DNA of 64,000 bases from Streptomyces roseochromogenus subsp. oscitans DS 12.976. GTDB taxonomy: Bacteria > Actinomycetota > Actinomycetes > Streptomycetales > Streptomycetaceae. Shown here in pieces: positions 35,463-40,921 of the stretch (position 1 is the first letter of the stretch; each line of letters starts with the position of its first letter). The position numbers and the translations under genes are program-made. The stretch is taken from NCBI RefSeq assembly GCF_000497445.1, contig NZ_CM002285.1, forward strand, positions 8,287,038 through 8,351,037, read 5' to 3'. The notes beneath the pieces were generated by a model. It had not been told where the DNA came from. It saw only the letters and a list, made by a program, of their open reading frames with translations, and did not search any database.

Positions 35463-35513
35463 GTGCGTGACGGGTCGTCCGGAAGCGCTGCCCCGGATGA
35501 CCCGTCATCGCAC
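35463..35513. terminator. Bidirectional hairpin terminator between convergent operons
   Basis: GTGCGTGACGGGTCGTCCGG pairs with CCGGATGACCCGTCATCGCA across a 10-base loop, with one bulge and one mismatch over about 20 bp. It lies 7 bases after the propeller stop and 40 bases beyond the metallopeptidase stop on the other strand. Confidence 0.75.
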
Positions 35514-35552
35514 CATGGTGCTCCGCACCAGGAGACCGTCTGGCACCCGGAC

Positions 35553-36962
35553 TCAGGACCGTGCCGGTGGCAAGGGCGGCAGCTGTTTCTCGTGGAGCCA
35601 CGCGTGCAGCACCGGCTCGACGGCCGTCGGCGCGTACCGGCCGGCATGGGCGATGAAGGCGGCGGTGTCGGCGCTGCCGCCGCGGTGCGCGTGGTGCCAG
35701 CCGCGCAGCAGGGCGAAGAAGCGGTCGTCGCCCAGCGTCAGCCGCAGGGCGTGGAGCGTACACGCGCCCCTGTTGTAGACGCGGTCGTCGAAGATGCGGT
35801 CCGGTCCGGGGTCGGCGATCCGCAGGCGCTGCGGCCTCCTCGCCAGCGTGTGCCAGGCCGCCCGGGCGATGGTGTCCGCGGAGTCCTCGCCGATGTGCTC
35901 CGACCACAGCCATTCGCCGTAGGTGGCGAAGCCCTCGTTCAGCCAGATGTCGCGCCAGTCCCGCAGACTCACGCTGTTGCCGTACCACTGGTGGACGAGT
36001 TCGTGGGCGACGAGCGTCTCCCACGTCCGGGCGCCGTCCACGTGGTTGCGCCCGAAGACGGACGCGGTCTGGTTCTCCACGGGCTGGTCCAGCTCGGCGT
36101 CCACGACGACCGCGCCGTAGGTCTCGAAGGGATACGGCCCGAACCAGCCGGTGAACACCTCGAACATGGCGGGCTGGCGGGCCAGATCGTACCGGGCCCG
36201 GCGGGACAGATAGGTGGGGTACGCGTCGCGGCCGGTGACCCGGCGGCCGGTCGAGGTGTCCCGGGCTTCCCAGGTGTCGTGGGTGAAGCGGCCGGTGTAC
36301 AGCGCTGCGAGATAGGGAGCCATGGGGCCGGGGTGGTGGTACGTCCAGCACTCGGTGGGCCCCCTGCGGCTCCGGTCCACGAGAGCGCCGTTGGCGAGCG
36401 CGTGGTGACCGCGCGGCACGGTCACCCGGAAGGTGAACTCGGCCTTGTCGTCCGGACGGTCGTTGCACGGGAACCACGACGGGGCACCGAGCGGCTGGGC
36501 GGCCACCAGTGTCCCCTCGTTGGCGTCGCCGGTACGGTCCCAGCCGATCTGCCCGAACGGCGTGCGCACCGGGCCGGGCCGGCCGCCGTAGCCGATCTCC
36601 ATGGTGAAGGGCGTGCCCGCCGCGATGGGGCGCCGCACGGGCAGGACCAGCTTGTTCCGTTTCCGGCCCGGACCGACGACGGCCCCGTCGATCCGGGCGT
36701 CGTGCACGGTCAGGCCCGCGAGATCCAGCTCGACCTGCCGTAGCGGCCGGTCCGCCACCGCCTGGATGCGGGCCCGGCCGTCGAGCGTGCCGGCGGCAGG
36801 GTCGTACGCCAGGTGCAGGTCGTAGGAGAGCGTGCGGTGGCCGTACGTTCCGTGGCTCGGAAAGTAGCGTTCGGCCTGCCTCGCCCCCTCGTCGGCGGCC
36901 GTCGCGGCCAACGGCACCAGCGCCGCGCCGCGGATCAGCGTCCGCCGGCTGCACCAGGTCAC
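35553..36962 (-). CDS. Exported M1-family zinc metallopeptidase, candidate polylysine-degrading enzyme
   Basis: A 469-residue gluzincin aminopeptidase. The N terminus SRRTLIRGAALVPLAATAA is a Tat-type signal, so it is exported. The exopeptidase motif is VENQT in place of GAMEN; the zinc site is HELVH at residues 320-324 with the third ligand Glu343 in NEGFA. The GTG start at 36960-36962 overlaps the stop of the Pls synthetase gene by four bases, so the two are translated together. Epsilon-poly-lysine producers are known to make zinc aminopeptidases that degrade the polymer, often encoded beside pls; that role is the best hypothesis here. Confidence 0.85.
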   Translation of the reverse strand: MTWCSRRTLIRGAALVPLAATAADEGARQAERYFPSHGTYGHRTLSYDLHLAYDPAAGTLDGRARIQAVADRPLRQVELDLAGLTVHDARIDGAVVGPGRKRNKLVLPVRRPIAAGTPFTMEIGYGGRPGPVRTPFGQIGWDRTGDANEGTLVAAQPLGAPSWFPCNDRPDDKAEFTFRVTVPRGHHALANGALVDRSRRGPTECWTYHHPGPMAPYLAALYTGRFTHDTWEARDTSTGRRVTGRDAYPTYLSRRARYDLARQPAMFEVFTGWFGPYPFETYGAVVVDAELDQPVENQTASVFGRNHVDGARTWETLVAHELVHQWYGNSVSLRDWRDIWLNEGFATYGEWLWSEHIGEDSADTIARAAWHTLARRPQRLRIADPGPDRIFDDRVYNRGACTLHALRLTLGDDRFFALLRGWHHAHRGGSADTAAFIAHAGRYAPTAVEPVLHAWLHEKQLPPLPPARS

Positions 36963-39900
36963 GCCGCCTCACCTCCGGCGAGCGGTGCGGCGGTGCCGGT
37001 CGCGGAGACACCGGCGATGGGGTTGCCGGCCCAGCGGGTGCCGTCGGGCACCGTCTCACCGCGCATCACGAGGGACGACGCGGCGATGGACGCGCCGGTG
37101 CCGATGGTGGTGCCGGGCAGGGCGATGCTGTGCGGGCCCAGGGAGGCGCCCGCCGCCAGGTGCACGGTGTCCATCCGCATGATCCGGTCGTGGAAGAGGT
37201 GGGTCTGCAGCACGCAGCCGCGGTTGACGCTTGCCCCGTCGTCCAGGCGGATCAGATCGGTCTCCGGCAGCCAGTAGGTCTCGCACCACACCCCGCGTCC
37301 GATGCGTGCGCCAAGGCTGCGCAGCCACCAGTTCAGTGCGGGCGTCCCCAGGTGCGCTCCCGCCCCCCACGGAACGGCCAGCACCTCCACGAACGTGTCG
37401 AACAGCTCGTTGCGCCACACGAACGACGACCACAGCGGACGCTCGCCCGGCTGGAAGCGGCCCACGAGCAGCCATTTGGCACCGGTCGTGGTCAGACAGG
37501 CCACCAGGGACGCGGCCAGCAGCAGCGGAGCGCCGACGAGCGCGACCAGAGGCAGGCCGCCGAGGTCAAGGGCTTCCTGCTCGGTGAGCAGCACGCCCTC
37601 GGCCAGCAGCGTGCCGATGATCACCGGCAGCAGACGGCACAGCTCCACGGCCGCGCGGGCCGCCACCAGCCGCCGGGGCGGCGCGAACGTCCGGGCCGGA
37701 TCGGCGGCACCGGCCACCCGGGGCAACGGCATCGCCGGCCGCCCGATCCACGACATCCCGGGCTCGCCCTGCGCCGGCGCGTCGGAGAGGACACCCACCA
37801 GGGCGTGGTCGGCGACGTCGCGGCCGGGGTCGACGATCCCCGAGTTGCCGACGAACGCCCGCGAGCCGATGCGCACCGGCCCCAACCGCATCCATCCGCC
37901 GCGCAGTTCGAACGGCGCGACGAGCGTGTCGTCGGCGAGGAACGCCCCGTCGTCCACCTGGAGCAGCGACGGCAGGGGCAGCACGGTCGAGATCTCGGTG
38001 CCGCGGCCGACACGCGCGCCGAGCAGCCGCAGCCAGTACGGCGTGGCCAGGCTCGCGTAGAGGGGGAACAGGCTTCCCCGGGCGCCGTCGAGGATGCGTG
38101 TCACCAGCCACGCGCGCCAGGCCACCCCGCCGTCCGCGCGGTGCAGACCCGGTGTGATCGAGCGGTTCAGCAGGCGTACGGTGAGCGCGCTGATCAGCAT
38201 CCCGCACACCGTGGTCGTCACCGCGAACAGCGGTGCGGTGGCGAGCAGTTTCAGGGCCGCCCCGGAAAGCGTCGCGGTGTGGCGCACCAGCAGCCAGGTG
38301 GCGAACAGCGCCGGCGCCGCCGCCAGCAGGGACAGCAGCGGCAGCACGGTGAGGGACAGCGCGTAGGCCAGGTGCCAGCGGCGCCGACGGTCCTGCGGCG
38401 GCGCGGGCCACCCGGCGCCGGCGATGCGTTCGGCGGGCTCGGCCGGCCGGGCCGGTGAGCCGGTCCACACATGACCGTCCGGGATCCGGGCGTCCAGGCA
38501 GCTGCCCGCGGTCAGCTCCGCACCGCGCCCCACGACAGCGCCCGGCAGCAGCGTGCTGCGGTGGCCCACCCGAGCGCCCGCGCCGATGGAGATCCGGCCG
38601 ATGTGCAGCGTGTCACCGTCGAGCCACCAGCCCGCGATGTCCGCCTCGGGCTCGACGCTGCATCCGTCGCCCAGCTCGGCCTGGCCCGTCACCGGGGGCA
38701 TGGTGTGCAACCGCACGTCCCGCCCGGTCCCGCAGCCCAGGAGCCGGGCGTACCGCGCGGCCCACGGGGTGCCGAGCAGCGACGGGACGCCGAACGCCGC
38801 CACCGCCCGTTCCGCGCTCCACAGCCGCAGATGGACCGCTCCGCCGCGCGGATGGGCGCCCGGAGTGATCGAGCCGGCCAGCGCGCGGGCCAGGCCCGCC
38901 CCGATCAGACAGCGTATCGGCGCGCTGAACAGCACCGCCCAGCCCACGAGGATCAGCCACCACGATGTGTGCGGAGCCCAGCTGTGCGGCGCCACCCAGC
39001 CGAGCACGTCGTCCGCCGCCGCCAGGCCGACCAGGCCGCGCAGCCCCGTGATCGCGTAGCCGGCCAGGGAGACGAAGAACTGCACGACGGCGGTCCGCCG
39101 GGGTACCGGCCGGGCCGGCTGTACGGCCTCCGCAGTGCCGGCGAGGGAGTCGAGGTGGGCGGCCATGCGGTGCAGCACCGAGTGCCGGTAGAGGTCGGCG
39201 ACGGACAGTCCCGGATACTCCTCGCGCAGCACCGACGCCATACGTGCCGCGGTCAGACTGGTGCCGCCGAGCCCCACGAAGTCGCTGTCGGGGCCGGGCC
39301 GCAGGCCGAGCAGCTGCTCCCAGACGTCCGCCAGCCGCGCGGCCGTTCCGTGCAGCTGGTGAACCGTGCCACCGGCACCCTCGCCGTCGGCGAGCGGCAC
39401 CGGCCAGGGCAGGGCTTTCCGGTCGGCCTTCCCCGAGGCACGCGTGGGCAGATCGGCCACCTCGGCCAGCAGCGGCACCAGCGGTGCGGGCAGCCGCTCG
39501 CTCAGCAGTGCCCTGGCCTTGTCGGCCTCGAAGACGGCCTGTCCGTCGCGGGCCGGCTCCGGGACGACGTAGCCCACCAGCACCTGTGCGCCGGCCGCCG
39601 TCGACTGTACGGCTGCGGCCGCCCCGCGCACCCCGGGCAGGGCGAGCAGGGCCGCGTCGATCTCGCCGAGTTCGACGCGCCGTCCGCCGAGCTTGACCTG
39701 GTCGTCGACGCGTCCCAGGAACACCAGTCCCTCGGCGTCGGCGCGCACCAGATCGCCCGAGCGGTAGGCGCGCGGCGAGTCGAGGGCGGGGCATGGCCGG
39801 AAGCGCTCCGCGTCCTTGACGGGGTCGAGGTAGCGCGCGGTTCCGGCGCCGGCGATGACCAGCTCGCCCTGCTCTCCGTACGCCACCGGTTCCCCGGCCT

Positions 39901-40921
39901 CGTCGACCACGGCCAGCTCCCAGCCCGCCAGCGGCAGTCCGATGCGGACCGGACGCCGGGGCTCCAGCCGGGCGGCGCAGGCCACGACGGTGGCTTCCGT
40001 GGGGCCGTAGGTGTTCCACATCTCCCTCTCAGGCCCCGCGAACCGTTCGACGAGGCCGGGAGGGCAGGCCTCGCCGCCGAGGATGAGCAACCGGACCCGG
40101 CGCAACGCCGCTTCGGGCCACATGGCCAGCAGGGTCGGGACGGTGGAGACGACGGTGATGTCACGCTCGTCGAGCCAGCCGCCGAGTTCGTGGCCGGCCC
40201 GCACCAGTGAGCGTTCGGCCGGCACCAGACAGGCGCCCGAGCGCCAGGCCAGCCACATCTCCTCGCAGGAGGCGTCGAAGGCGACGGACAGCCCTGCCAG
40301 GACGCGGTCGCCGGGGCCCAGCGGCCGGCCGGGCAGGAACAGGTCCGCCTCGGCGTCGACGAAGGCGGCGGCGGAGCGATGGGTGACGGCCACGCCCTTC
40401 GGCGCGCCGGTCGAACCGGACGTGAAGATGATCCACGCGTCGTCGCCGGGCGCGGGCGCACCGCGGTCCACCGCGGCTCCGCACGGTGGCGCAAGGTCCA
40501 CGGGCTGCGGATACGGCCCCAGCACGCGGCACACGCCCGCCTCGCGGAAGACAGTGGCGGCACGCTCCTCAGGGTCGTCGGCGTCGACCGGCACATAGGC
40601 CGCTCCGCAGTACAGGATCGCGAGGATCGACAGATACAGCTCCGCGGTACCCGACGGGACCCGGACTCCCACCCGGTCGCCGGGGCCGATTCCCAGTACG
40701 GCGAGCCGCTGTGCGCGGCGGTCGGCCTCGGCGCACAGCTGACGGTAGGTCAACATCTCGGTACCCGTGTCCAGGGCGGGCACGTCCGGGTGTATGGCGG
40801 CGGTGGACTGCAGGACGTCGATGAGGGTGCGCGGCGACGCAGCTGCCCCGGAGCGGAACAGCGCCCGGTCGCCGGGCGGGTTGTGGGGAGGGTGAGGCGC
40901 ATCGAGTGCGGGCGAAGACAA
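36959..40921 (-). CDS. pls: Pls-type non-ribosomal peptide synthetase, probable epsilon-poly-L-lysine synthetase
   Basis: A 1320-residue membrane NRPS with the known Pls layout. Adenylation domain about 25-505 (FTSGSTGAPKG at 166, YRSGDLV, LGRVDDQVKLGGRRVELGE, catalytic Lys498). Carrier domain about 520-590 with phosphopantetheine site Ser555 in GLGGTSL. Then six membrane helices in three pairs (about 611-676, 855-940, 1085-1145), each pair followed by a left-handed-helix, acyltransferase-like domain. The ten pocket residues (D216, A217, E220, S259, I280, G282, T304, V312, V313, K498) spell DAESIGTVVK, close to the lysine code DAESIGSVCK. TTG start after GAGG. It precedes and overlaps the M1 peptidase. 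Confidence 0.93.
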   Translation of the reverse strand: MSSPALDAPHPPHNPPGDRALFRSGAAASPRTLIDVLQSTAAIHPDVPALDTGTEMLTYRQLCAEADRRAQRLAVLGIGPGDRVGVRVPSGTAELYLSILAILYCGAAYVPVDADDPEERAATVFREAGVCRVLGPYPQPVDLAPPCGAAVDRGAPAPGDDAWIIFTSGSTGAPKGVAVTHRSAAAFVDAEADLFLPGRPLGPGDRVLAGLSVAFDASCEEMWLAWRSGACLVPAERSLVRAGHELGGWLDERDITVVSTVPTLLAMWPEAALRRVRLLILGGEACPPGLVERFAGPEREMWNTYGPTEATVVACAARLEPRRPVRIGLPLAGWELAVVDEAGEPVAYGEQGELVIAGAGTARYLDPVKDAERFRPCPALDSPRAYRSGDLVRADAEGLVFLGRVDDQVKLGGRRVELGEIDAALLALPGVRGAAAAVQSTAAGAQVLVGYVVPEPARDGQAVFEADKARALLSERLPAPLVPLLAEVADLPTRASGKADRKALPWPVPLADGEGAGGTVHQLHGTAARLADVWEQLLGLRPGPDSDFVGLGGTSLTAARMASVLREEYPGLSVADLYRHSVLHRMAAHLDSLAGTAEAVQPARPVPRRTAVVQFFVSLAGYAITGLRGLVGLAAADDVLGWVAPHSWAPHTSWWLILVGWAVLFSAPIRCLIGAGLARALAGSITPGAHPRGGAVHLRLWSAERAVAAFGVPSLLGTPWAARYARLLGCGTGRDVRLHTMPPVTGQAELGDGCSVEPEADIAGWWLDGDTLHIGRISIGAGARVGHRSTLLPGAVVGRGAELTAGSCLDARIPDGHVWTGSPARPAEPAERIAGAGWPAPPQDRRRRWHLAYALSLTVLPLLSLLAAAPALFATWLLVRHTATLSGAALKLLATAPLFAVTTTVCGMLISALTVRLLNRSITPGLHRADGGVAWRAWLVTRILDGARGSLFPLYASLATPYWLRLLGARVGRGTEISTVLPLPSLLQVDDGAFLADDTLVAPFELRGGWMRLGPVRIGSRAFVGNSGIVDPGRDVADHALVGVLSDAPAQGEPGMSWIGRPAMPLPRVAGAADPARTFAPPRRLVAARAAVELCRLLPVIIGTLLAEGVLLTEQEALDLGGLPLVALVGAPLLLAASLVACLTTTGAKWLLVGRFQPGERPLWSSFVWRNELFDTFVEVLAVPWGAGAHLGTPALNWWLRSLGARIGRGVWCETYWLPETDLIRLDDGASVNRGCVLQTHLFHDRIMRMDTVHLAAGASLGPHSIALPGTTIGTGASIAASSLVMRGETVPDGTRWAGNPIAGVSATGTAAPLAGGEAA

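Follow-up and report, generated by a model that had tools for sequence, protein, structure and literature searches.

A predicted epsilon-poly-L-lysine synthetase operon in Streptomyces roseochromogenus subsp. oscitans DS 12.976, whose genome holds a second lysine-code pair

The window studied here (the whole stretch of 64,000 nucleotides that was analysed) very probably carries the pls gene of an ordinary operon for the antimicrobial polymer epsilon-poly-L-lysine (epsilon-PL), consisting of pls and a pldII-like gene, the product being predicted from sequence. Such a gene is of a known kind, and is ordinary apart from a second lysine-code pair elsewhere in the genome. Poly-lysine is the supported best prediction for the encoded synthetase, and this reading, already offered in a preliminary description of this DNA, is now better grounded because the pocket code is identical to that of the solved synthase 7WEW, the protein groups with Streptomyces Pls sequences and a pldII-type peptidase gene adjoins it. 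The features are collected in Table 1.

Table 1. Features of the predicted pls operon, in window positions
Feature	Position	Strand	Details
pls, predicted epsilon-poly-L-lysine synthetase, 1320 aa	36959..40921	minus	TTG start 40921, stop 36959
adenylation domain of pls, residues 1-510, pocket DAESIGTVVK	39392..40921	minus	alignment to 7WEW
carrier (thiolation) domain of pls, residues 529-590, GGTSL motif at residue 552	39152..39337	minus	Pfam + motif
Pls/PosA C-terminal membrane region of pls, residues 623-1302	37016..39055	minus	TIGR02353
pldII-like M1 metallopeptidase, 469 aa	35553–36962	minus	M1 domains, HELVH, GTG start

The preliminary description had given exactly these coordinates for the pls reading frame but had left the strand unstated. 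The TTG start was accepted because the MSSP... N-terminus of 7WEW aligns from residue 1; the frame and core motifs are intact, and the GC3 of the reading frame is 0.90. Pfam places an AMP-binding domain at residues 38–363, a carrier domain at 529–590 and one Hexapep stretch at 777–808, with AMP-binding_C slightly below its cut-off (22.6 vs 24.5 bits), and the NCBIfam model for the Pls/PosA terminal domain (NRPS_term_dom, TIGR02353) matches residues 623–1302 with an E value of 3.7e-189 and 630.4 bits, above the curated cut-off of 423.1. One A domain and one carrier domain thus lie N-terminal of the TIGR02353 region, which is the Pls/PosA layout, and no standard condensation or thioesterase domain was found in the Pfam table of the protein (both at E 0.001).

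As described in the accessible text of PMC8117764, the family layout comprises six helices and three soluble C-terminal segments. At a hydropathy threshold of 1.6 we found five C-terminal hydrophobic stretches; the first of the six expected helices peaks at 1.49, lower than the 1.59 of residues 92–115, which belong to the soluble A domain, and a sixth stretch shows only at 1.3, where A-domain stretches also pass, all of this by hydropathy scan. One soluble segment was detected as the Hexapep stretch, the number three coming from the published family description. The layout proposed earlier holds for the A domain, the carrier and the Pls/PosA C-terminal region; where six helices were expected, the scan gives five clear stretches and a weak candidate for the first.

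Alignment to GrsA in 1AMU numbering (as a control, GrsA itself returned DAWTIAAICK) gave the pocket DAESIGTVVK (D216, A217, E220, S259, I280, G282, T304, V312, V313, K498), the same ten letters as had been read before, which differ by two from the lysine code DAESIGSVCK of bacitracin synthetase as quoted in the preliminary description. The best solved relative of the protein is 7WEW, named epsilon-poly-L-lysine synthase and covering residues 1–510, to which the A domain is 73.2% identical over 507 columns and with which it shares all ten pocket positions. The same code was read, in frames anchored on the match, in every one of 80 homologous loci (the best 80 of 587 relatives). These homologues are not an independent test, since similarity was the basis of their selection and a code position falls within EREMWNTY, one of six search patterns; all the result shows is that close relatives share this code as their standard one, most of them being apparently only predicted synthetases. 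Taken with the identity to 7WEW, it marks DAESIGTVVK as the standard Pls code, and a novel or deviating pocket was rejected. The second code position is reported as A in Pls, M in PosA and F in PDAP/PDAB synthetases (PMC10522769, in the text accessible), so the A of the window protein fits lysine. The same pocket would be compatible with another diamino acid as a side substrate.

Directly after pls lies an M1 metallopeptidase gene, overlooked in the preliminary description, whose GTG start overlaps the pls stop by four bases as GTGA. In its translation, read by eye, the HELVH motif is followed 18 residues on by a glutamate, and the N-terminus (SRRTLIRGAA) holds an arginine pair that looks Tat-like. 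A plus-strand reading frame at 35463–36743 sits over this gene on the opposite strand, is without family match and was rejected. By tblastn, an M1 homologue is present in 69 of the best 80 pls loci (of 587 relatives) and directly after pls in 67 of them, starting at most about 130 bases from where pls ends (start distances extrapolated from the tblastn match); it lies farther away in L086 (602 bases) and L076 (3915 bases). It is absent from the other 11 of these 80, three of which (L026, L028 and L031) span less than 1.8 kb beyond pls, and in the remaining eight (L010, L021, L023, L024, L025, L027, L029 and L032) no homologue was found in the 5.8-6.0 kb downstream of pls. The peptidase pairing is thus not universal and, as L010 encodes a protein 84% identical to the window Pls and has no M1 gene in 6 kb, is not fixed even among near relatives. 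A pls-peptidase operon has been reported in Streptomyces and Corynebacterium, with PldII degrading epsilon-PL (PMC8117764), and PldII has been placed on the outside of the membrane (PMC9205021); in the portions of the papers seen, accounts of chain length disagree, one of them reporting a longer polymer on pldII repression. The window metallopeptidase is likely the counterpart of PldII, as judged by position and published description.

Among the matches listed, the closest relatives of the synthetase are from S. griseofuscus (88%), S. tropicalis (88%), S. naganishii (84%) and Streptomyces sp. CoH27 (84%). An A-domain tree was built from 83 of 86 rows, leaving out GrsA, the A-domain protein of L005, and L085, and was rooted at the midpoint, for drawing only, on the very long PAR_L007 branch. 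A split with support 100/99 separates 65 rows from 18, the latter being the window, 7WEW, 15 Streptomyces loci and the distant PAR_L007. S. roseoverticillatus is among these 15 loci, and an epsilon-PL synthetase has been reported in strain MN-10 of that species (PMC8117764, accessible text). In the same tree the window groups weakly with S. griseofuscus (91/39), and the pair formed by 7WEW and Streptomyces sp. NRRL F-4489 has support 100/99.

TIGR02353 scores above its cut-off at four places in this genome: the window, L006, L007 and L005. L006 (6502-10470; genome C1 about 7.73 Mb) encodes a second Pls-type synthetase of 1322 aa with the pocket DAESIGTVVK, 53.9% identical to the window protein, and its M1 neighbour is 47.7% identical to the window M1. 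In the tree L006 falls among the 65 rows, grouped with L059 and L071 (100/100). The genome holds two separate lysine-code pls–M1 operons, whose synthetases come from branches of the family that lie well apart. We put forward tentatively that the two operons could yield different forms of poly-lysine, differing for instance in chain length, or could serve under different conditions. A limited literature search for strains carrying a pair of pls genes found no relevant paper, and we make no claim that such a case is unpublished. The family was above cut-off in 110 of the 199 genomes of the genus searched, this one included, and two copies were found in at least one of ten genomes reached from named loci (Streptomyces sp. 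CoH27, both copies lysine-code, each match running past one TGA). This count is a lower bound because scoring was confined to 64 candidates per genome, a number smaller than that of the first pass in nine of the ten, and codes were read for five of the 11 loci of this survey.

The two other places are of different kinds. L007 (8898-13034; genome C1 about 0.15 Mb) is a full-length Pls-type synthetase of 1378 aa with the code DFEYFGTVTK, its second position being F as reported, in the text accessible, for PDAP/PDAB synthetases. L005 (651-8647; genome C1 about 1.60 Mb) encodes a split 872-aa protein with a carrier (by eye) and a Pls C-terminal part, without an A domain, beside a 1083-aa complete NRPS (code DIWQSTADDK), a TauD-family protein and an SbnB (2,3-diaminopropionate) gene.

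Since the architecture is common to synthetases of several such polymers (PMC8117764 and PMC10522769, portions seen), the window enzyme could in principle make another cationic isopeptide, namely poly-ornithine, poly-diaminobutyrate, poly-diaminopropionate or poly-beta-lysine, but we consider this very improbable. The second code letter is A as in Pls, not the M of PosA or the F of PDAP/PDAB synthetases, and the peptidase neighbour is as for pls, while three of the other synthetases are reported, in the accessible text, in a different context. Epsilon-poly-beta-lysine synthetase is reported to have the code DGESISVVNK, unlike that of the window, and an adjoining lysine-2,3-aminomutase gene (PMC10522769, same text); a search of this genome for that aminomutase family (TIGR00238) gave no match, the same search being positive in 9 of 14 control genomes, which argues against a beta-lysine polymer, and with both code and aminomutase against it this product was rejected. 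Compatible with a poly-lysine product is the further suggestion that the window gene is a Pls but that the L006 copy makes most of the polymer, as this second synthetase matches it in code, has an M1 gene beside it and scores higher against TIGR02353 (841 bits vs 630). The window copy, however, has the A domain closer to 7WEW (73.2% vs 63.1%) and its frame and core motifs are undamaged, and we think it unlikely that L006 is the main producer.

If the window synthetase is an epsilon-PL synthetase, its A domain, with a pocket identical to that of 7WEW, would adenylate L-lysine and load it onto the carrier domain, and the membrane C-terminal region would, as in S. albulus Pls, attach this lysine to the epsilon-amino group of an acceptor, either free lysine or the growing chain. 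The pls gene of S. albulus NK660 has been expressed in S. lividans (PMC3937719). By analogy with S. albulus PldII, the peptidase would have as its substrate the polymer lying beyond the cytoplasmic membrane, and its action may serve to protect the producing strain. The window adds one more well-supported epsilon-PL operon, of use mainly as an additional producer candidate, and the second lysine-code operon would allow a single-strain test of chain-length determinants and of the role of the peptidase.

Among known systems, PosA, the delta-poly-L-ornithine synthetase of Acinetobacter baumannii, is alike in family and architecture but differs in its reported code (DMEHNGTVSK) and single-gene operon (PMC10522769, accessible text). 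PldII of S. albulus resembles the window metallopeptidase as the product of a metallopeptidase gene adjoining pls, a likeness drawn from published description at the level of metallopeptidases in general. The epsilon-PL synthetase Pls (7WEW) is alike in pocket and N-terminus, and the published Streptomyces pls operon in its peptidase neighbour, with identity to 7WEW at 73.2% in a comparison confined to the A domain. The Pls homologue of S. griseofuscus DSM 40191 (L008) shares with the window protein its pocket code and, across 1320 columns, 88% of its residues, and there too pls overlaps by four bases with an M1 gene, whose product is 83% identical to that of the window; epsilon-PL production has been reported, at species level, for strains of S. 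griseofuscus (PMC8443760, portion seen).
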